Below, one piece after another: positions 5,188-63,867 of a DNA stretch of 64,000 bases. The stretch lies in contig LFLA01000018.1 of the NCBI GenBank assembly GCA_001542995.1, forward strand, positions 99,501-163,500. The letters are read 5' to 3'. Position 1 is the first letter of the stretch. Each line of letters begins with the position of its first letter. The notes under the pieces are model-generated. The model had not been told where the DNA came from. It was given only the letters and a program-made list of their open reading frames with translations, and ran no database searches. The position numbers were made by a program, and so were the translations under genes. The DNA comes from Nitrospina sp. LS_NOB. GTDB lineage: Bacteria > Nitrospinota > Nitrospinia > Nitrospinales > VA-1.

Positions 5188-8100
5188 ATGTTTGGTGTCA
5201 AAAAGGGGTGGAAAAACTGGCATGCGTGTGCGGTCGTTCTTATGACCTTGGGGCTTTCTGTCCCGGCAGGCGCTGTCTCGACGGACCATTCACATGGTGG
5301 TCAAAATCTCGGCAATGCTGCGGTAGACAAACCCGCATGGTTGGAAAAGCTTGAAAACCAACTTGAGCATGAAGACCTAATGTCCGGCATGGAAGGCAGT
5401 CAGGGCAAACTGGACAACACCATGATGAGAATCATGGACCAGTTAAAATCAAAGCTCAAGGAACACGCCAGCCCGGCTTCATCCGGTGGCGGTTTTCACG
5501 ACTCCTGGGCCGCCCATCAGTTGGGACAAAGCTATCTCCTTGGGCCAACGGAAGCGGCAGCCAAAGTATATAAAGGCGCCCACTGCCCCAGCAACATTCC
5601 CGTAAAACAATATAATATCTCGGCGATCAACGTGGAAGTCACCCTCAACCAATGGGGCGATTACTACCCGGGCTATATGTACGTTCTGGACAAGAACATT
5701 GAAAAAGTCCGCGCTGAAGAGGAAAAAAATGCAGCCGCTCGTGAAGACGGACTGGATCCCGGTGCAGTTTCTAACGGCCTTCAGGGTGATGCCATTCAAC
5801 CCTTGGTTATTAGAGGCAACCAGGGAGAATGTGTCCGCGTAAAATTTACGAATCAGTTGGAAGATGAGGACGCGGGTTTTCAGATAAATGGTTCTGCCAT
5901 GATCATCAGTTCCAGCGGCCAGCCTAACACGGCAGCCACATCTGGCTCCATTGTGGCGGCCGAAGAGACACAAGACTATGAGTGGTACATCCCTATCGAT
6001 GAGCAGGAAGGCGGTCACATGATCCAGAATCATGCGGGTCGTGATCCTTCTTCTCTGGGATTGATCGGAACGTTTATTGTTGAGCCGAGAGGTGCCCGTT
6101 ACCTGGATCCATGGACCGGCGGTCCGCTGGAAAGCGGCTGGATGGCCATGATTGTCAATGACAATGCCAAGGATTTTCGGGAATTTACTCTGATGTACCA
6201 CGAAGTGGGTGACGAATCTTTTCGCCCCCTCAACCGTCATGGTGAAATGATTCCGCAACGCGATCCGCAGACAGACGCATACCGTCCTTCTGCACGCGCC
6301 TTGAACTTCCGCTCCGAGCCGTTTGGTATCAATAACCTGGCTGTTCAGGAAAAGAAATTTCATTTTGAAGACGAGTCTCTGGCTTACAGCTCTTACACTT
6401 TTGGAGATGCTCCGACCACGATTCCCCGTTCCTATCTGGGTGATCCGGCAAAATTCCGCCTCGTGCATGGCGGTGGTGAAGTTTTCCATTCCCATCATCC
6501 GCATGGTGGAACCATCCGTTGGACCCGTTCTCCGCAACGTGAAGCTCAGCAGTTGCTGAACCTGACCACAGCGGCTTATGACGGTCCTGTTAAGTATCCT
6601 GTTGTAAGAACAACTTCAGCTCGTGTTGACGTTCAAGTCATTGGTCCTTCAGAAGTTATGGACTTGGAAACGGAATGTGGATCCGGACTTTGTCAACGTC
6701 TGGCAGGAGACTTCCTGTTCCATTGTCACGTTGCGCATCATTACGTAGCAGGTATGTGGGGCTATTGGAGGGTTTACAACATCCTGCAGACGGGCAACTA
6801 TCCGTTCGAAAGCACCGATATCATGCGTCCCTTGAAAGAACTTCCTGATCGTGCGGGAAGAATTCCCAAAGGACAAACTTCAGACAAGCTGGTCGGTAAA
6901 ACCATGGACTGGTTTGGCAAGAAGTTTAAAATTGTAGGAAAAGGAAAAAGTGACTGGTCGAAAGAAATCCCGGTCGTCAATATCAAGGACTGGGTGAAGT
7001 ACATGCTTCCGCCCAAGGGCCAGCCGGGTCACGTTGATGATCAGATCAAACAGGTCAAGGCGTACGACGGTTCTGTATTGGATTATGGCTGGAAAGGTAA
7101 TAAGGCCATGTCTGAGCGGGAAACGGTTACTAAATGGCCGAAATTTAAAACTCCGCATCCTGGTAAACGCCATCCGATTCAGTTTGACCAACATGGCAAA
7201 CTGGCGTGGCCTCATCTGACACCGCATTTTGGTAAGCGTGTTCCTTTTGCGCGAAACCATGGTGGCGCTCCCTGGCTGGAGCCATTCCATATGCAGACCG
7301 ATCCGGAGGTTATTACTAGGACGGAATCCGGTAGTGCGCGAAGTGGTCCCGATATGGAGAATACGGGTGGTGCCAAACCGGGTGAACAGGGCCGATGGAG
7401 CCTTTGTCCCCGAGGTGCTGGACGCAAACAGTACAACCTGCACTTCATCAACACTCCGATCGAGCTTACCGGACAGATTGGGAAAACCCCGCCGGTCATT
7501 GATAAATACGGTTTGATCTATGTGATTGATGAAGAAATGGCTGAGAAAAAAGCAGATCCTAAAAAAGCCATTCCATTGGTCATTCGCGCAAATGTTTATG
7601 ACTGCGTGGATGTCCTGCTTTCAAGTGAATGGGATGATGATGACTTTACTAATTTCCAGATGTCTAAAGTTAACATCCATCCACATTTCTTCCAGTTCGA
7701 CAATCAGGCCTCAGACGGCGTAATCACTGGGTTTTCTTATGACCAGTCGATGAGGTCTTACACGCAGTTCACCAAGAAGATGAAAGACGGACATCATATT
7801 GGCATGCCGGTTCCAATGAACGCCAAGTTGTTGAAGGCGACGAAACCGGGTGACAACACAGTCCAGATTCAGATGGCAAAGGGTTCGCCCACCTACCATG
7901 TTGGAGCTGATATCATTGTTGGTATCGAAGTTCCCAATGGCAAGGATGCACGCTGGATCACAAATATCACGCCTGATCCAAATAAAGGCCCAGCCAAAGA
8001 CGGCAAATACACCATCAAGTTTAGCGAAGGCATGACGCATGCGCATGCGGCAGGTCAAATCGTCACGACTGAATATGTGCGTTATCGCTGGTGGGTGGAT

Positions 8101-10140
8101 GTTGATATGGGTCTGGTGTTCTGGCATGATCATGCGTTCGGCGCGACCACTTGGCCGCACGGCGGAATCGGGTCTACCATTGCTGAGCCTTGGGGGTCTA
8201 CGTACCATGATCCCACAACTGGTAAGCTGATTCGCAGTGGACCGGTAGCTGATATTCATAGTACTGAAATTGTTGGCTACAACACTCAAGGAAGTTTCCG
8301 TGAATTGGTGGCCCAGGTGAGTGACACCGTTCCTCATACTGCTCAGTTGGTGACTGCAGGAAATCCACCGGGACTGACACGTGAAAACGCGATCGCCGCG
8401 GGACAATCGATTTCCTTCCAGATGCCTACTGACATGCTGGAAGTTGCCTTTCCTCTTTTGAATGGTGGAACCCATACAACAGGGGGTGCTTTCAATTTCA
8501 GGGCTGCTTCTTTGGCCGCAAGAATTGCAAGCAACAAAGACGCTTCCAAACTGTTCAGCAGTAAGGTGCATGGCGATCCTTCTACACCCATGTTGAGAGC
8601 TTATGTGGGAGATAATATTGTCTTCAGGCTTTTGGCGGGTATGCAGAATGAGACCCATACCTTTGTCGTGTCAGGGCATGGTTACCGGCCGGAGCGCTAT
8701 GACCGGGACTCCCGCGTGACAAACACCATTCATATTGGCATTGCTGAGCGTTATGACCTACCCACCAAAGCGGGTGGTTTTCAGCAAATGGCGGGTGATT
8801 ATTTATACTATAACGGACGAACCTCCAAGCTGTCTGAAGGGAGCTGGGGAATTATCCGTGTGCATGATGAAGTTCAGAAAGATCTGAAAATTCTTCCTGG
8901 CAACACAGACTTTAAGAAAAAAGTTAAGAAGACTGTTTGCCCGAAAGGCGCTCCGGTTAAAAACTTCAGTGTTGTCGCGATTGACAAAGCGTTGAAGTTT
9001 CATCCCAACACTGAAGATGAGATCGAAGTGGACTTTGAACGCAAACTGCTTCTTGCTAATGCCAGTGCGAAAATTTACGCTCTGGAAGGCGAAGTCAAAC
9101 AGGCTGCTGAAGATGGCCACATGCCGCATCCGTTGACCCTGCGTGTCAATATCGGTGATTGTGTCAAGATCAAGCTGACCAACCGCCTGAAAAAAGGCAA
9201 CGCATCGATTCATGCTAATAACATCGCGTTCGATCCCAAGGATTCTCAGGGAATCAACGTCGGGAACAATCCGGGCGACCAGACGGTGGCTCCGGGTAAA
9301 TCGAAAACCTATACGTTCTACGCGCACCCTGAGTTCAAAATCAATGGTTCGTTGTTATGGGATTTCGGTAACCTGCTGACAAATATTCGCGATGGTTTAT
9401 ATGGCGGTATCATCATCGGGCCGCGTGGTTCGGTGTACCGTGATCCTGAAACCGGGAAAGACATCTCTCTCGGTAATTCCTGGAAAGCGGATGTCATCAT
9501 CGATAAGTCCTACCCTGAAAACGCGAACATCGATAACTACCGCGACTTTGCGTTGTACTTCCAGGATGAAGACAACATCATCGGTACATCTTTCATGCCT
9601 TACCTGCAGAACGTAGCAGGGTTGACCGGCGTGAACTACCGCCTTGAGCCATGGACCTATCGTGAAGACGAGGGTTGTGAGCTGGGTAATATGTTCACGG
9701 CTTGTGTTGCGGCGGATTCTGATCCGGCAACACCGACTCTGAAAGCCCATGCTGGGGATCAGATAATGATCAACATTTTTGGGGCTCATAATGAGCAGAA
9801 CCAGGTGTTCAATTTGGATGGCCACCAGTGGCGGCGCCATATGGATCAGAATGGTTCTGACATGATTGATGCCGAGCAGTTTGGTGCGGGCGAGTACATT
9901 CAGGCCTACTTCAATGCTGGTGGAACCTACAATAACCCCGGCACCTACCTGTGGTTGAATGCCCGAACGCCATACCAACAGGCAGGCCAATGGGGTTATT
10001 TCAAGGTATTGCCTGTGGGTGATCGTTCCATCTTGCCGCTGGGTAAAGCGGCAGTGAAGGGCGTGAAAACCGCATCTCAGCCGGAGGAAGGGGAGAAATC
10101 CGCTTCCAAGGCTGGGGACGATAAGCTGTCCATGAGATAA
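5188..10140 (+). CDS. Giant secreted multicopper oxidase (MofA/MnxG-like), three-module
   Basis: The start is set by TTAGGAGG eight bases upstream and a clear signal peptide ending near VPAGAVS. The 1650-residue protein is about three times a laccase. Three modules each open with a related motif: CPSNIPVKQYN (Cys133), CPRGAGRKQYN (Cys740) and CPKGAPVKNFS (Cys1251). Copper motifs include HSHHPHG (434-440), the type 1/type 3 motif HCHVAHHYVAGM (512-523, axial Met523), HPHFFQF (831, 833) and WHDH (980-982). These provide four HxH pairs, enough for a trinuclear centre. The third module keeps few histidines (about 1534, 1546) and looks structural. Similar size and layout are known for the manganese oxidases MofA and MnxG, but the substrate here is not determined by sequence. 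It probably acts with the copper protein downstream. Confidence 0.9.
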   Translation: MFGVKKGWKNWHACAVVLMTLGLSVPAGAVSTDHSHGGQNLGNAAVDKPAWLEKLENQLEHEDLMSGMEGSQGKLDNTMMRIMDQLKSKLKEHASPASSGGGFHDSWAAHQLGQSYLLGPTEAAAKVYKGAHCPSNIPVKQYNISAINVEVTLNQWGDYYPGYMYVLDKNIEKVRAEEEKNAAAREDGLDPGAVSNGLQGDAIQPLVIRGNQGECVRVKFTNQLEDEDAGFQINGSAMIISSSGQPNTAATSGSIVAAEETQDYEWYIPIDEQEGGHMIQNHAGRDPSSLGLIGTFIVEPRGARYLDPWTGGPLESGWMAMIVNDNAKDFREFTLMYHEVGDESFRPLNRHGEMIPQRDPQTDAYRPSARALNFRSEPFGINNLAVQEKKFHFEDESLAYSSYTFGDAPTTIPRSYLGDPAKFRLVHGGGEVFHSHHPHGGTIRWTRSPQREAQQLLNLTTAAYDGPVKYPVVRTTSARVDVQVIGPSEVMDLETECGSGLCQRLAGDFLFHCHVAHHYVAGMWGYWRVYNILQTGNYPFESTDIMRPLKELPDRAGRIPKGQTSDKLVGKTMDWFGKKFKIVGKGKSDWSKEIPVVNIKDWVKYMLPPKGQPGHVDDQIKQVKAYDGSVLDYGWKGNKAMSERETVTKWPKFKTPHPGKRHPIQFDQHGKLAWPHLTPHFGKRVPFARNHGGAPWLEPFHMQTDPEVITRTESGSARSGPDMENTGGAKPGEQGRWSLCPRGAGRKQYNLHFINTPIELTGQIGKTPPVIDKYGLIYVIDEEMAEKKADPKKAIPLVIRANVYDCVDVLLSSEWDDDDFTNFQMSKVNIHPHFFQFDNQASDGVITGFSYDQSMRSYTQFTKKMKDGHHIGMPVPMNAKLLKATKPGDNTVQIQMAKGSPTYHVGADIIVGIEVPNGKDARWITNITPDPNKGPAKDGKYTIKFSEGMTHAHAAGQIVTTEYVRYRWWVDVDMGLVFWHDHAFGATTWPHGGIGSTIAEPWGSTYHDPTTGKLIRSGPVADIHSTEIVGYNTQGSFRELVAQVSDTVPHTAQLVTAGNPPGLTRENAIAAGQSISFQMPTDMLEVAFPLLNGGTHTTGGAFNFRAASLAARIASNKDASKLFSSKVHGDPSTPMLRAYVGDNIVFRLLAGMQNETHTFVVSGHGYRPERYDRDSRVTNTIHIGIAERYDLPTKAGGFQQMAGDYLYYNGRTSKLSEGSWGIIRVHDEVQKDLKILPGNTDFKKKVKKTVCPKGAPVKNFSVVAIDKALKFHPNTEDEIEVDFERKLLLANASAKIYALEGEVKQAAEDGHMPHPLTLRVNIGDCVKIKLTNRLKKGNASIHANNIAFDPKDSQGINVGNNPGDQTVAPGKSKTYTFYAHPEFKINGSLLWDFGNLLTNIRDGLYGGIIIGPRGSVYRDPETGKDISLGNSWKADVIIDKSYPENANIDNYRDFALYFQDEDNIIGTSFMPYLQNVAGLTGVNYRLEPWTYREDEGCELGNMFTACVAADSDPATPTLKAHAGDQIMINIFGAHNEQNQVFNLDGHQWRRHMDQNGSDMIDAEQFGAGEYIQAYFNAGGTYNNPGTYLWLNARTPYQQAGQWGYFKVLPVGDRSILPLGKAAVKGVKTASQPEEGEKSASKAGDDKLSMR

Positions 10141-11433: not shown

Positions 11434-11752
11434 GAGACCTTTGCATAAGTCGAAAAAACGTACAGGAGAGATTCTTCACTGCGTTCAGAATGACAAGAAA
11501 CGCCGGTTTGTCATCCTCAAGGAGCTGAAGGCGACGAAGGATCTCGCCTTGCACTAACCTGGGGATTCTTCACTGCGTTCAGAATGACAAGAAACGCCGG
11601 TTTGTCATCCTCAAGGAGCTGAAGGCGACGAAGGATCGCGCCTTGCACTAACCTGGGGATTCTTCACTGCGTTCAGAATGACAAGAAACGCCGGTTTGTC
11701 ATCCTCGAGGAGCCCCGAAGGGGTGACGAAGGATCTGGGGTTATGCAAAGTT
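11434..11752. repeat. MITE-like element with three 94-bp tandem repeats (copy A)
   Basis: The left end reads AGAGACCTTTGCATAAGTC and the right end TTATGCAAAG, an inverted pair. Between them a 94-bp unit beginning ATTCTTCACTGCGTTCAGAA starts at 11471, 11565 and 11659. Each unit holds an imperfect inverted repeat (GATTCTTC...GAAGGATC). Flanking sequences CCCTTATCATGGCC (11410) and CCCTTATCAGTGCC (11759) look like a target duplication. The rest of 11164-11847 holds no gene I can support. Confidence 0.75.
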
Positions 11753-27594: not shown

Positions 27595-28350
27595 ATGATT
27601 GCCATGAAGAATAAAATTGTGTTCGCTCTGCTCTGCTTCGTTATTTCTGGGACACCCGTCGTTGCAGAAGAAATAAACGCTCAGAAATTGCTGGAGCAGG
27701 TGGACGACAATTTATGGGCCAATACCAAATTTATTACCGGGCGTCTCATCATCGATAATGGACGTAAAGTGCGCACCCTGACTCAGGACTCGTGGATGCA
27801 GGGAGTGGACCGCTCTTACAGTCATTACAAATCCCCAGCCCGTGAAAAGGGAACTAAAATGCTCAAGATCGGCGGCAAGCTATGGATGTACACCCCGCGT
27901 ACAGACAGAAAGATATTAATCGCCGGTCATCTTCTCAGGCAGTCGATGATGGGGAGCGACCTCTCTTATGAAGACATGATGGAAGACCATAAGTTGAGCC
28001 ACTCCTATTCTGCTATCTTTGAAAACTTCGAAGATTTTGCCAGTACCCGCTGCGCTGTTTTACATCTGGTAGCGCGGGATAAGGAAACGACTTATCAGAC
28101 TCGGAAAGTTTGGATCAGCCCGGAGAATCAGAGGGTCCTGAAAGAGGAACGCTTTGCCAAAAGTGGAAAACTGTTAAAGAGAATTGTGTTCAAAGACTAC
28201 GAAAGAATTGGAAGCCGCCAGTTTCCCCGTACCATGATCTTTCGCGATATGCTTAAGGAAAATACAAAGACCACCTATAAGTTTGATGTCATCGAGTTTG
28301 ATGTCGAGATCCCAGCTAAATACTTTTCCCAAAGTATTTTGAAGCGGTAG
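27595..28350 (+). CDS. LolA-like outer-membrane lipoprotein-sorting protein
   Basis: The 251-residue protein has a signal peptide ending VVAEE. Its body matches the LolA/LolB-like COG2834 type: an unclosed barrel with DRSYSHYKSPAREKGTKMLKIGGKLWMYTP, SMMGSDLSYEDMM and RTMIFRDMLKENTKTTY. These proteins carry a hydrophobic client through the periplasm. It closes the ABC operon. Its last 16 codons (28302-28350) are duplicated at 30668-30716, with a ParA/toxin-antitoxin islet between, so its 3' end may have been used or rebuilt by an integration event. An internal start at 27604 is possible. Confidence 0.88.
   Translation: MIAMKNKIVFALLCFVISGTPVVAEEINAQKLLEQVDDNLWANTKFITGRLIIDNGRKVRTLTQDSWMQGVDRSYSHYKSPAREKGTKMLKIGGKLWMYTPRTDRKILIAGHLLRQSMMGSDLSYEDMMEDHKLSHSYSAIFENFEDFASTRCAVLHLVARDKETTYQTRKVWISPENQRVLKEERFAKSGKLLKRIVFKDYERIGSRQFPRTMIFRDMLKENTKTTYKFDVIEFDVEIPAKYFSQSILKR
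28302..28350 (+). repeat. Left direct repeat of the ParA islet (3' end of the LolA-like gene)
   Basis: This 49-bp stretch, from TGTCGAGATCCCAG to the TAG stop, matches 30668-30716 at 47 of 49 positions. It includes the functional stop codon of the LolA-like gene. Confidence 0.9.
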
Positions 28351-28399
28351 ATAAAGGCTCTCAGCTTGTGAAAAGGTTTTCTTTCTTTAATTACCACAG

Positions 28400-28774
28400 C
28401 TACATATTCCGAAAAGCATCTCCCTTTTGCGAACGGCTATTAACCAATGTAATAATATGCTCAATCAGGCGGTCTTTTGATTCCCATTTCATGGCCAACT
28501 TCTTTTGATCCATGCCTTGTTCTGCAATTATATCCTTGAGTTGATCGATCTCTAAGGCTTCCAATCTGTCTTTAAGTAATTCTGGATGATTGTGATAGAC
28601 CTCCATTGGATCAAAAGGCCCAGGTTTTCTCCGATGCGACCGCTTTGAGTCCTTGTCCTGTCCAATATTTTGCTTTTCGATTAGTTTAGTCATTCGGTCT
28701 CTAAATCCCGGGTTTGTTTTGAATTCTTTCAGGAATTCTCCAAAAATCGCTTTTAACAACGTATTCATATCCAT
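28400..28774 (-). CDS. Small protein coupled to ParA (possible ParB-like partner)
   Basis: The 124-residue, charged protein starts inside the stop of the parA-like gene (TAATG overlap), so the two are co-translated. The middle is basic and Pro-rich (KRSHRRKPGPFDP). The C-terminal part (LKDRLEALEIDQLKDIIAE, then LIEHIITLV) resembles a small helical SAP-like or Lsr2-like nucleic-acid-binding segment. It is not a recognised ParB. By position it could be the DNA-binding adaptor of a minimal partition system, which is inference. No homologue is recognised. Confidence 0.6.
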   Translation of the reverse strand: MDMNTLLKAIFGEFLKEFKTNPGFRDRMTKLIEKQNIGQDKDSKRSHRRKPGPFDPMEVYHNHPELLKDRLEALEIDQLKDIIAEQGMDQKKLAMKWESKDRLIEHIITLVNSRSQKGDAFRNM

Positions 28775-29817
28775 TAGTCCGCTACCTCCATGATCTCCTC
28801 AGTAAGGGAATGAAAAATGTCATAGCGTCCTTGGTAGCTATATTTCTGCCTCAAGGTGCTTGTCGGGTCATATTCTGCCGAGGCGGCTATAGCATCGGCC
28901 TGAGGGATTTGGTTTTTAAAAACCATAGGGTGTTTTGTTGAGTCTTTATCGGCATCAGCACAAAGTTGCTTTCTTATTCGTTGATGAACAGATGAATTCG
29001 CCTGAAACTTAGAAATTACGATTCCATAAGGATAAATTGTTTCCCCGATATTCCCCGCAAATTTACTGACCCGTTCAATTATTTGGGGAATGCCATAAGT
29101 GGATAATACGTCAGGAATAGTGGGTATGATGTAGCCATTAGATATTCGAAGGCCATTCAGCGTAATCAGCCCCAGGTTGGGAGGGCAATCAATGAGGACG
29201 TAATCATATTCTTCAATGATTGGCTTCATCGCTCTGTTCAAAACGTCAATGGGACTATTAGAATGGAATCGACCGCTTGGCATTGATGCCAAATTATCCT
29301 GTACATCGATAAGGTCAAGACTTGATGGGATGAGGTCAAGTGTCCTGACATCATCTACGGCTGAGACGCCCTTTTGTCGAGTCTGGTCTAAGTCGAAATT
29401 TTGAGTTTCTTTCAGAGCATCTTCAAATAAAGTTGCGAGAGTGTGTTTCTTATCATTCAGTTCACGCCATTTTTCTTCCCCAATGAGCATTATGGTTGCA
29501 TTTGTTTGCGGGTCCAGATCAATAATAAGGACGCGCTTGCGGAAGGCCTCTGAAAGAATCTCCCCGATAGCAACCATAGCAGTTGATTTCCCTACCCCAC
29601 CTTTAAGGTTGATTGTTGCAATTACTGTTGTCATGTTTTTTCTCCTTTTCTTAAGCCATTTTTTGACTGGACCGAGATAAAATACTGGTCCGGATTTCAA
29701 CTCCAATGCAGGGGGCGGGAAATCGGGGTGTCGAGAGCGCCAATTTGCGACAGCGGCAGGCGTCACGCCTGCAATTTCAGCGATTTCGTAGATACCAACA
29801 AGATCATCAATATTCAT
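28774..29817 (-). CDS. ParA-family partition ATPase with N-terminal helix-turn-helix
   Basis: The 347-residue protein starts with a helix-turn-helix of about 60 residues (IYEIAEIAGVTPAAVANWRSRH). It then has a ParA ATPase with deviant Walker A KGGVGKST (72-79), IIDLDPQTNAT and LIDCPPNLGLITLNG. N-terminal DNA-binding domains are known in plasmid ParA proteins that autoregulate. An internal ATG at 29634 (Met62) has the strong site AAAAGGAGAAAAAAC upstream and would give a shorter ATPase without the HTH, so two products are possible. It is followed by the 124-residue partner. Nothing in the islet looks like a replication protein or integrase. Confidence 0.88.
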   Translation of the reverse strand: MNIDDLVGIYEIAEIAGVTPAAVANWRSRHPDFPPPALELKSGPVFYLGPVKKWLKKRRKNMTTVIATINLKGGVGKSTAMVAIGEILSEAFRKRVLIIDLDPQTNATIMLIGEEKWRELNDKKHTLATLFEDALKETQNFDLDQTRQKGVSAVDDVRTLDLIPSSLDLIDVQDNLASMPSGRFHSNSPIDVLNRAMKPIIEEYDYVLIDCPPNLGLITLNGLRISNGYIIPTIPDVLSTYGIPQIIERVSKFAGNIGETIYPYGIVISKFQANSSVHQRIRKQLCADADKDSTKHPMVFKNQIPQADAIAASAEYDPTSTLRQKYSYQGRYDIFHSLTEEIMEVAD

Positions 29818-29841
29818 ATCAAATTCCGATTGTTAACGAGG

Positions 29842-29867
29842 TTCACACTGTGAATTATATTCACATA
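29842..29867. promoter_or_regulatory. Probable operator upstream of the ParA gene
   Basis: TTCACACTGTGAA (29842-29854) is a perfect 13-base palindrome. It is followed six bases later by another TTCACA (29860). It lies 25 bases upstream of the HTH-ParA start, a likely autoregulation site. Confidence 0.5.
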
Positions 29868-30028
29868 TTATTTGGTTCTTGGTCGATTGTCAAATTTTTT
29901 GTGAGCTTTGTTTTCAGGGCCGGTGGAAAAGATTGGCCATTTCTTTTCTTGGTAGGCCTATAGAGTATAGAAGGGGATCAACCTATATGATAATTGCATT
30001 TTCCTAGGTGTGTGTAAATGTTCATTAT

Positions 30029-30045
30029 TCACATTTGTGGTGAAA
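30029..30045. promoter_or_regulatory. TTCACA-type operator upstream of the toxin-antitoxin pair
   Basis: TTCACATTTGTGGTGAA carries the same TTCACA/TGTGAA half sites as the ParA operator at 29842. It sits about 45 bases upstream of the antitoxin start, overlapping the inverted AAATGT...ACATTT arms at 30017-30037. Confidence 0.42.
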
Positions 30046-30089
30046 TATGCTAGTGTGAGTAAGAAATGGTTATAAATAGGAGAAAATAA

Positions 30090-30353
30090 ATGGGCCGTCT
30101 ATCTATTGAAATCACCCCGGAGCAACATAAACGGCTGAAAGCCGTCGCCGCGCTCCAAGGCAAGAGCATTAAAGATTACGTTCTCGAACGTGCCTTACCG
30201 CCGCTCCCAGATATGGATTCCATGTCAGAGGAAGAAGCTCTCCATAAACTGGAAAACTTTCTGGAATCGCGTATTGAGTCTGCAAGAAAAGGAGAGTTTT
30301 CGTCCCGTTCGGTTGAACAGATTTTTGAGGATGTCCGGCAGGATCAAAAATAA
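30090..30353 (+). CDS. Ribbon-helix-helix antitoxin (ParD-like)
   Basis: The 87-residue protein has a ribbon-helix-helix N terminus (GRLSIEITPEQHKRLKAVAALQGKSIKDYVLERAL) and an acidic C-terminal tail. The start follows ATAGGAGAAAATAA. Its last base overlaps the toxin start. It would bind the toxin and repress the promoter through the operator at 30029. It lies on the opposite strand to the ParA gene, in the islet bounded by the 49-bp repeats. Confidence 0.85.
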   Translation: MGRLSIEITPEQHKRLKAVAALQGKSIKDYVLERALPPLPDMDSMSEEEALHKLENFLESRIESARKGEFSSRSVEQIFEDVRQDQK

Positions 30354-30661
30354 TGCAGGCTTATGAATTAACCCGCAACGCAGAAGCCGACTTGGAGGAA
30401 ATCGCCCGATATACAATTGAGCAATGGGGTGATGTTCAGGCCAAAAGCTATTTGGGGAAAATCAGCCAATGTTGCAAAAATATTGCGAAGAAAAAAGTTA
30501 TTCCCCGGACCTTTTTAGAAAAATTTCCCGATGCGTGTGTGGTTCGCTGTGAACATCATTTTATTTTCTACCTGGTTCGAGAAGGAGTGAAGCCAATCAT
30601 ATTCGCCATTCTTCATGAACGCATGGATATGTTGATCCGGCTCAAAGATCGTCTGGGATAA
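30353..30661 (+). CDS. RelE/ParE-family toxin
   Basis: The 102-residue protein has the ParE/RelE fold signature: LTRNAEADLEEIARYTIEQWG, then a basic middle, VVRCEHHFIFYLV and FAILHERMDMLIRLKDRL at the end. ParE branch members poison gyrase; RelE members cut mRNA. The C-terminal sequence favours ParE. It overlaps the antitoxin by one base. Its stop is only six bases before the right 49-bp repeat, so the gene reaches the edge of the islet. Confidence 0.86.
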   Translation: MQAYELTRNAEADLEEIARYTIEQWGDVQAKSYLGKISQCCKNIAKKKVIPRTFLEKFPDACVVRCEHHFIFYLVREGVKPIIFAILHERMDMLIRLKDRLG

Positions 30662-30667
30662 TAAGGT

Positions 30668-30716
30668 TGTCGAGATCCCAGCTAAATACTTTCCCCAAAG
30701 TATCTTGAAGCGGTAG
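30668..30716 (+). repeat. Right direct repeat of the ParA islet (copy of the LolA-like 3' end)
   Basis: This copy still encodes VEIPAKYFPQSILKR and a TAG stop but has no gene upstream. It matches 28302-28350 at 47 of 49 positions, so it is a relic of the end of the LolA-like gene, displaced by 2366 bp. Confidence 0.9.
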
Positions 30717-30758
30717 AAAAAGATTTTCAATACTATGAGTCCGGTGAATGGATTTTTG

Positions 30759-31157
30759 CTAAGCAAGTGAAAAGTCTTTTCCCTCCGCAACAATTCTATT
30801 AACCATTTTCATCATGGTCTCATTATCAACGGGCTTGACCAGATATTCCTTGATGCCTCTTGCTATTAGGTCACGCGCCATATCCGGATCCGGATACCCA
30901 GTCACAACGACCACCGGGATTCCCGGCGCCTCTTGTTTCAGGAAAGCGATGCATTCAATCCCGTTTACCTTTGGCATGCGAATGTCACACATGATAAGTC
31001 CGACATTTATCATATTGTCGCCAGAACGAAGGAGCGCAATAGCTTCTTCCCCGTTTTCTGCCACTATAGGGTTGTATCCACCTTTTTCTAATCGATCGGA
31101 AAAAATATCCCTTACATCCTGTTCGTCATCAACAATTAGAATTTTCCCTTTAGCCAT
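30759..31157 (-). CDS. Single-domain response regulator (CheY-like)
   Basis: The 132-residue protein is a complete receiver with no output domain: acidic pair in ILIVDDEQDV, phospho-acceptor in GLIMCDIRMPKVNG, Thr in VVVTGYPD and Lys in YLVKPVD. The start follows a GGGGG-rich site. The kinase partner is not adjacent; the nearest kinase is at 371-2143. It sits just outside the ParA islet. Confidence 0.9.
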   Translation of the reverse strand: MAKGKILIVDDEQDVRDIFSDRLEKGGYNPIVAENGEEAIALLRSGDNMINVGLIMCDIRMPKVNGIECIAFLKQEAPGIPVVVVTGYPDPDMARDLIARGIKEYLVKPVDNETMMKMVNRIVAEGKDFSLA

Positions 31158-31215
31158 GTTGAACCCCCTATTTTTTAATTAGAGTTCTAAATTTTAATAC
31201 AATAAAAGGTCTGAT

Positions 31216-31356
31216 TTATTCGATTTGCTTCATGGTAAAGGCAATTACGAGCAATCCCACGACAGCGATGATTAGCACCACCTGTATTCCAGTAATATCG
31301 CCGGCGACTTCGACCCACTTGATTGAGAAGAAATTCCAAGAGTCCAATTCATTCAT
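31216..31356 (-). CDS. Small single-pass membrane protein (46 residues)
   Basis: An ATG at 31354-31356, with GGGAG nine bases upstream, opens a 46-codon frame. The N terminus is soluble and aromatic (MNELDSWNFFSIKWVEVAG). A membrane helix follows (VVLIIAVVGLLVIAFTM) and a short MKQIE tail. Size, ribosome site and hydrophobic profile support translation. No family is recognised. It is upstream of the single-domain response regulator on the same strand (gap about 60 bases), so the two may be co-transcribed. Confidence 0.55.
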   Translation of the reverse strand: MNELDSWNFFSIKWVEVAGDITGIQVVLIIAVVGLLVIAFTMKQIE

Positions 31357-31569
31357 CTTTCACACTCCCATTAAAATTTCCGTTCGGCCATTTCTTTGGG
31401 GTCTCTGGTTTTTCGGCCTTTCGCCCTTGCTATGGATCAAGAGGTGAGGTCATGAGAAAAATAAATGATCGGAACCGCCCCTGTGAAACAACCGTTCCTA
31501 GTGCATACAGGAACTATAAGTAAATATTCTGCCTGGAAGGGAATTTGTCAATACCAAAACCAATTTTTA

Positions 31570-61649: not shown

Positions 61650-61993
61650 TTAAATACTCCTGCTGAATAGAGACCTTTGCGCAAGTCAAAAAAGGGGGAA
61701 GACCAGATTCTTCACTGCGTTCAGAATGACAGCGCAAAGTCGGTTTGTCATTCTGAGGAACAACGTGACGAAGAATCTCGCCTTGCACGGGCCTGGGGAT
61801 TCTTCACTGCGTTCAGAATAACAGCGCAAAGTCGGTTTGTCATTCTGAGGAACAACGTGACGAAGAATCTCGCCTTGCACGGGCCTGGGGATTCTTCACT
61901 GCGTTCAGAATAACAGCGCAAAGTCGGTTTGTCATCCTTGAGGAGCCGAAGGCGACGAAGGATCCGGGGTCATTTAAATACCCCTGCTGAATA
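61644..61993. repeat. Repeat array (copy C) with 26-base flanking duplication
   Basis: GAGACCTTTGCGCAAGTC (from 61669) is followed by three units with 92-bp period beginning ATTCTTCACTGCGTTC at 61707, 61799 and 61891. The flanks, GGTCATTTAAATACTCCTGC plus TGAATA (61644-61669) and its copy with one mismatch (61968-61993), form a 26-base direct repeat. The right copy is the end of msrAB; the left copy encodes FSRSI, a stop and the ATG of the GIY-YIG gene. Confidence 0.82.
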
Positions 61994-63389: not shown

Positions 63390-63867
63390 AATGATCAGAA
63401 TGACAATACAATTGTTCAGCATGGCAATACCGGGCTATTTTGTCATTCCGAGGAATAAGGCTTTTTGTCATTCTGAGGAATAACGTGACGAAGAACCGAG
63501 ATTCTTCACTTCGTTCAGAATGACAATACAATTGTCCAGCATGGCAATACCGGGTTATTTTGTCATTCTGGGGAATAAGGCTATTTTGTCATTCTGAGGA
63601 ACAATGTGACGAAGAATCCCCAGTCTAAAGTTATGGATTCAAAACAGGGATTACCCCTTCGGGGCACGAAAGCTTAGGTGAAACATCACGTCTTCACTTC
63701 GTTCAGAATGACAATATAATTGTTCAGCATGGCAATACAAGGCTATTTTGTCATTCTGGGGAACAAGGCTTTTTGTCATGCTGAGCTAAGTGATATTTGA
63801 CCTTTGAATTCTTGCCCCGTAGGGGTATCTCGAAGCATCTCGATTCTTCGACTTATGCAAAGGTCTC
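63390..63867. repeat. Right-end repeat cluster (copy D)
   Basis: AGAATGACAATACAATTGT plus CAGCATGGCAATAC recurs at about 63397, 63516 and 63703. GTCATTCTGAGGAA stretches with CGTGACGAAGAATC lie between, and a palindrome ACCCCTTCGGGGCACG lies at 63652. The right end ACTTATGCAAAGGTCTC (63851-63867) is the same terminal repeat as in copies A and B. A minus-strand frame from beyond this end (63776-63967) reads into the repeat and may be a chimeric tail of a gene whose start is just past 63967. From 63123 to 63389 nothing is seen. Confidence 0.65.

Follow-up and report, generated by a model that had tools for sequence, protein, structure and literature searches.

A toxin-antitoxin islet between two copies of a gene 3' end in Nitrospina, and the recurrence of this arrangement at other genes

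How stand-alone chromosomal toxin-antitoxin (TA) pairs move without the enzymes of mobile elements is a question that a locus in Nitrospina sp. LS_NOB raises in a compact form. We analysed a window of 64,000 nucleotides of contig LFLA01000018.1 (all coordinates are window positions unless another locus is named) in which a ParDE-type TA pair, a ParA-type ATPase with a helix-turn-helix (HTH-ParA) and the 124-residue partner of this ATPase (p124) are bracketed by two copies of the last 49 bp of a lolA-like gene. The original prediction, made from the letters of the window alone, had described this islet and likened it to integrative elements that insert in a gene's 3' end and restore it. The four-gene content agrees with that description (Table 1). 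Here we consider how the islet could have come to lie between the two gene ends, and whether the same arrangement is found elsewhere.

The bracketing of the islet by a duplicated gene end is borne out by direct comparison. The two copies are identical at 47 of 49 positions with a spacing of 2366 bp, their local-alignment score is 95 against a maximum of 31 for shuffled sequences, and the similarity fades past the stop codon. As had been predicted, the outer copy still encodes a gene end and a stop codon with no gene ahead of it; it translates as VEIPAKYFPQSILKR-stop, the end of the LolA-like gene reads VEIPAKYFSQSILKR, and a single S-to-P change separates the two. This 49-bp core occurs twice in the whole genome, both times at the islet, and among 64 genomes of the order the window genome is the only one with an orphan second lolA end.

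Table 1. Features of the islet and its borders, in window coordinates
Feature	Position	Strand	Basis or remark
LolA-like host gene, intact	27595..28350	+	PF17131, E 3e-48; syntenic in relatives
Inner repeat copy: final 49 bp of the lolA-like gene with its stop codon	28302..28350	+	
p124: 124 residues, partner of HTH-ParA; predicted helical, not of a known family	28400..28774	-	
HTH-ParA: N-terminal helix-turn-helix and ParA-type ATPase (KGGVGKS)	28774..29817	-	PF13614, E 1e-38; alignment
Possible operator upstream of HTH-ParA (TTCACACTGTGAATTATATTCACA)	29842..29865		
Probable parDE operator	30016..30036		related AAATGTTCATTRTTTACA motif ahead of parD in several relatives
parD antitoxin, RK2 type	30090..30353	+	PF09386, E 9e-34; RK2 ParD 2an7, E 3e-13
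parE toxin	30353..30661	+	PF05016, E 2e-15
Outer (orphan) copy of the lolA 3' end	30668..30716	+	begins 6 bp past the parE stop
Outer flank, with response regulator (30759-31157, -)	30717..31569		absent from the locus in relatives

The gene order of the genus at this locus runs from an ABC permease to lolA, which faces the convergent series DUF58, MoxR, UDG and argS. The lolA-DUF58 interval measures about 40-750 bp and often holds a 55-aa open reading frame, which is absent from the window; the islet never occupies this interval in relatives within the genus. The end of lolA was considered as a general insertion hot spot and rejected: the interval is variable, yet the orphan end is present in no other genome. 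Every relative that has the lolA-like gene has a single 3' end, as the original prediction had proposed to look for; a precise empty site was not found among the relatives examined, which lack the islet and the outer flank alike. Because that flank, whose nearest relatives are in other genera, is also missing at the locus, a clean empty site is not demonstrable. What is supported of the proposed insertion is a lineage-specific event that left the host gene intact, with single 3' ends in relatives and two further TA modules arranged alike; a site-specific integrase, in cis or in trans, finds no support.

The two further modules lie at unrelated loci. In genome G037, a single contig of 3.9 Mb, yidC is followed by an RK2-type parDE and then by a repeat of the gene's own last 45 bp; in G042 a different ParDE-type pair is enclosed by two copies of the final 38 bp of a small gene. 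The three cases have further features in common: the TA genes point the same way as the host gene, the stop codon closes the repeat, and only a short gap (6 bp in the window, 24 bp in G037 and 8 bp in G042) separates the toxin stop from the orphan copy. This recurrence bears on the possibility of an assembly chimera, in which strain variants with and without the islet were misjoined so that one strain's gene end follows another's islet. In its favour, the two copies resemble alleles of two strains and the window genome consists of 26 contigs; against it, the islet junction contains no N and the same layout is found in the single contig of G037 and at unrelated loci. A chimeric assembly is unlikely, and we give it very little weight.

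Controls and a wider survey place bounds on how common the arrangement is. Random placements gave 4 matches in 739, two of them at parDE loci and two unrelated, and 1 of 99 loci of other genes carried the signature. In a survey of orphan gene-end copies over 1.58 Mb of G037, the window genome (G000) and G017, there were two clear instances, in each of which a 3' end recurs downstream of its gene, and one further case of 25 bp; orphan copies of 5' ends or in upstream positions were not found. The cargo in the two clear instances is a DUF4437 gene and a multi-gene block, so that cargo across all cases comprises TA pairs, a DUF4437 gene and a multi-gene block. From the controls and the survey together, the signature is rare, directional and not confined to TA cargo. 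An enrichment for TA cargo is suggestive only, because the TA cases were partly found by inspecting TA loci.

Individual loci show the range of such gene ends. In G037 an orphan gene 3' end follows a DUF4437 cupin gene (L269, 11634-11713 and 12979-13058), the copies differing mainly by synonymous sites and conservative changes. In the window genome, a 368-aa gene has an orphan copy of its 3' end 6.7 kb downstream, beyond a multi-gene block (L278, 9542-9615 and 16326-16399; G000:C24, about 49.5-56.4 kb). A possible further case there is a 463-aa gene whose end recurs as a 25-bp copy; this copy overlaps the end of the following gene, which encodes a dioxygenase (PF00775; L294, 13030-13054 and 13744-13768; G000:C24). 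Four other sets of repeats were not counted: those around a ParDE pair on an IMG/VR viral contig (L176), which form a cassette-like array with units of about 90-210 bp separating small genes; those around parDE in G040, which are dispersed repeats; those of G028 (L119), which are non-coding; and a 72-bp, 92% repeat that encloses parD and a truncated parE in G032 (L222), a locus too rearranged.

The differences between the copies carry a record of their own. In the three TA cases 9 of 10 differences are synonymous, where 2.7 would be expected (p about 5e-5), and over seven cases 38 of 62 are synonymous against an expectation of 18.6. Since nine of the ten are synonymous, the copies diverged while both were parts of working genes, each as a coding allele in a lineage of its own; they look like alleles of one gene from different strains. 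In G037, as far as the sites were readable, it is the outer copy, not the gene, that keeps the codons of same-genus relatives. This allele-like divergence fits a donor end joined to the cargo with the resident end pushed outward, and not a spare copy decaying in place.

Decay of a spare end is what a local tandem duplication of the gene end and parDE, followed by partial deletion, would entail. In keeping with such a history, no orphan copy accompanies the parE remnant behind lolA in G006 or the parDE behind yidC in G040; in G006 the remnant lies 43 bp after lolA and is the sequence nearest to the window parE. The orphan copy could thus postdate the arrival of parDE, and a single ancestral event joining parDE and the duplication was rejected on the same two genomes. 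The divergence of the copies under coding constraint, the codons kept by the outer copy of G037 and the lack in the survey of 5'-end or upstream orphans, which random duplication would be expected to yield, all argue against tandem duplication, which we consider improbable. The original prediction had allowed that the repeat might prove to be a tandem-duplication scar; the synonymous bias disfavours this.

A site-specific integrative element at gene 3' ends, its tyrosine recombinase lost or acting in trans and the repeats representing attL and attR, would produce an architecture much like that of the islet. As in known elements and islands in gene 3' ends, direct gene-end repeats flank the insert, the block of identity closes with the stop codon, and the host gene ends up restored. 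HTH-ParA and p124 lie within 6 kb of an integrase at 6 of 24 loci elsewhere, and the lolA core holds a 9-bp inverted repeat (AAATACTTT-TCCC-AAAGTATTT), but this palindrome follows from a conserved coding motif. The islet differs from those elements in several respects. No integrase is present among its four genes, as had been predicted; the inserts measure 0.8-2.4 kb; and the ends duplicated at lolA, at yidC and at the G042 gene show no sequence relationship and share no att core. The genome encodes four tyrosine recombinases, none of them shown near a core copy because the core occurs at the islet locus only. The lack of a third core copy likewise rules against an integrase in trans, and the idea of a minimal element moved by enzymes acting in trans finds no support in the genome or in a core common to the cases. 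The regular breakpoints remain the main point for a site-specific element, which on balance we regard as doubtful.

We favour, if only modestly, acquisition of the islet through recombination with a related lineage's DNA, in which the 3' end of the lolA-like gene served as the anchor and the islet needed no recombinase of its own. Homologous recombination on the gene side would bring in the cargo together with the donor version of the gene 3' end; homology would run out at the stop codon; and on the far side an illegitimate joint, directly behind the toxin gene, would link the cargo to the 40-50 bp with which the recipient's own gene ended. The outcome would be a whole gene and an orphan end as scar, and addiction by parDE may aid retention of the islet. 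The architecture, its recurrence, the allele-like divergence and the absence of a recombinase are observed, and from them we infer the order of events and the nature of the joint. The junctions have only a few bases of possible microhomology. Several points weigh against this account. The donor origin of the inner copy is itself inferred, the breakpoints are more regular than illegitimate joints require (6, 8 and 24 bp past the toxin stop, with copies of 38-49 bp), and clean TA cases number only three. The window pair, taken alone, has one synonymous and one non-synonymous change and is uninformative, and no known strain has the same outer flank without the islet.

Integration that is homologous on one side and illegitimate on the other has been described in competent bacteria and in Escherichia coli (PMC3240628). 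Acquisition as proposed here shares with it the one-sided homology, the illegitimate second joint and the absence of a carried recombinase; it differs in that the process described there is a laboratory one, and the regular orphan-end scar and the TA cargo do not figure in that description. Tentatively, the cases might reflect a recurrent gene-capture route in these bacteria, whether through an unrecognised recombinase or through stereotyped one-sided recombination, by which the cargo would bring its own last 25-84 bp of the host gene, restore the gene at the stop codon and shift the resident end to the far side, with TA pairs as frequent cargo.

The TA pair of the islet is of RK2 type, a PF09386 ParD followed by a PF05016 ParE in one operon. 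It shares with RK2 parDE the two protein families, the antitoxin-toxin order and the overlap of the genes, and differs in being chromosomal. RK2-type ParD is present in nine genomes of the order. Between G040 and G010, which belong to different families, ParDE is 86% identical and yidC about 58%, so parDE moves horizontally across family boundaries within the order; a tree of parDE did not resolve the branching. None of nine plasmid-borne parDE relatives has flanking repeats. G036 (L171/L224) has, on a single contig, two parE copies next to duplicated Sel1-repeat genes; another gene end is duplicated there as well (7684-7763 and 9195-9274).

HTH-ParA and p124 form a conserved two-gene unit that has no family name and is separate from parDE: at all 24 loci with this type of HTH-ParA, p124 directly follows or overlaps it. 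Elsewhere (L062-L064, L145-L148, L236-L249) the unit lies near integrases, restriction-modification, AbiE and ubiquitin-like genes, and also on conjugative plasmids; two Methylocystis plasmids carry it, each with its own repC. Apart from the window genome, the searched genomes of the order yielded neither p124 nor a close HTH-ParA. In comparison with ParABS systems, the ATPase is of ParA type (PF13614) and the partner is not of ParB type, as p124 matches no ParB or other family; no fold match for it was found. A role in maintenance or a partition-like function can be conjectured; in the favoured account the pair is a second module that travels in the window islet only.

Two other repeats touch this region or its relatives. 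The 3' ends of p124 (28437-28463) and of the response regulator (30796-30822) have 20 of 27 bp in common, nearly in register with the main repeat; this likeness is probably due to chance, the p124 end being kept within its own family. Tandem arrays of a dispersed repeat containing GATTCTTCACTGCGTTCAGAATGACA occur in the window at 11470-11713, 61706-61944 and 63395-63616, with no Rfam match there, and a repeat resembling them flanks parDE in G040.

Among known systems, restriction-modification systems are reported to insert without the help of a mobile element and to duplicate their target over a long, variable stretch of the order of 100 bp (PMC3874152, PMC1643837), an observation that these citing papers attribute to Nobusato et al. 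2000. As far as those secondary accounts go, the likeness is that an addiction-type module enters the chromosome unaided by a mobile element and is left flanked by long direct repeats of its target, as around the islet; the differences are that the cargo here is a type II TA pair with HTH-ParA and p124, that the target is a gene 3' end up to the stop codon (38-49 bp), and that the copies differ like alleles. The ccdO157 pair of E. coli also forms, by itself, a genomic islet downstream of a core gene (PMC2654758), where the end of folA is not duplicated. Our literature search, which left most subscription papers outside its reach, found no report of the pattern for TA pairs. Through the scar described here, the long-target-duplication pattern of restriction-modification systems would come to include TA modules as well; being readable as an orphan end, stop-codon breakpoints and allele-like divergence, the scar would permit insertions, donors and recipients to be traced from sequence alone.
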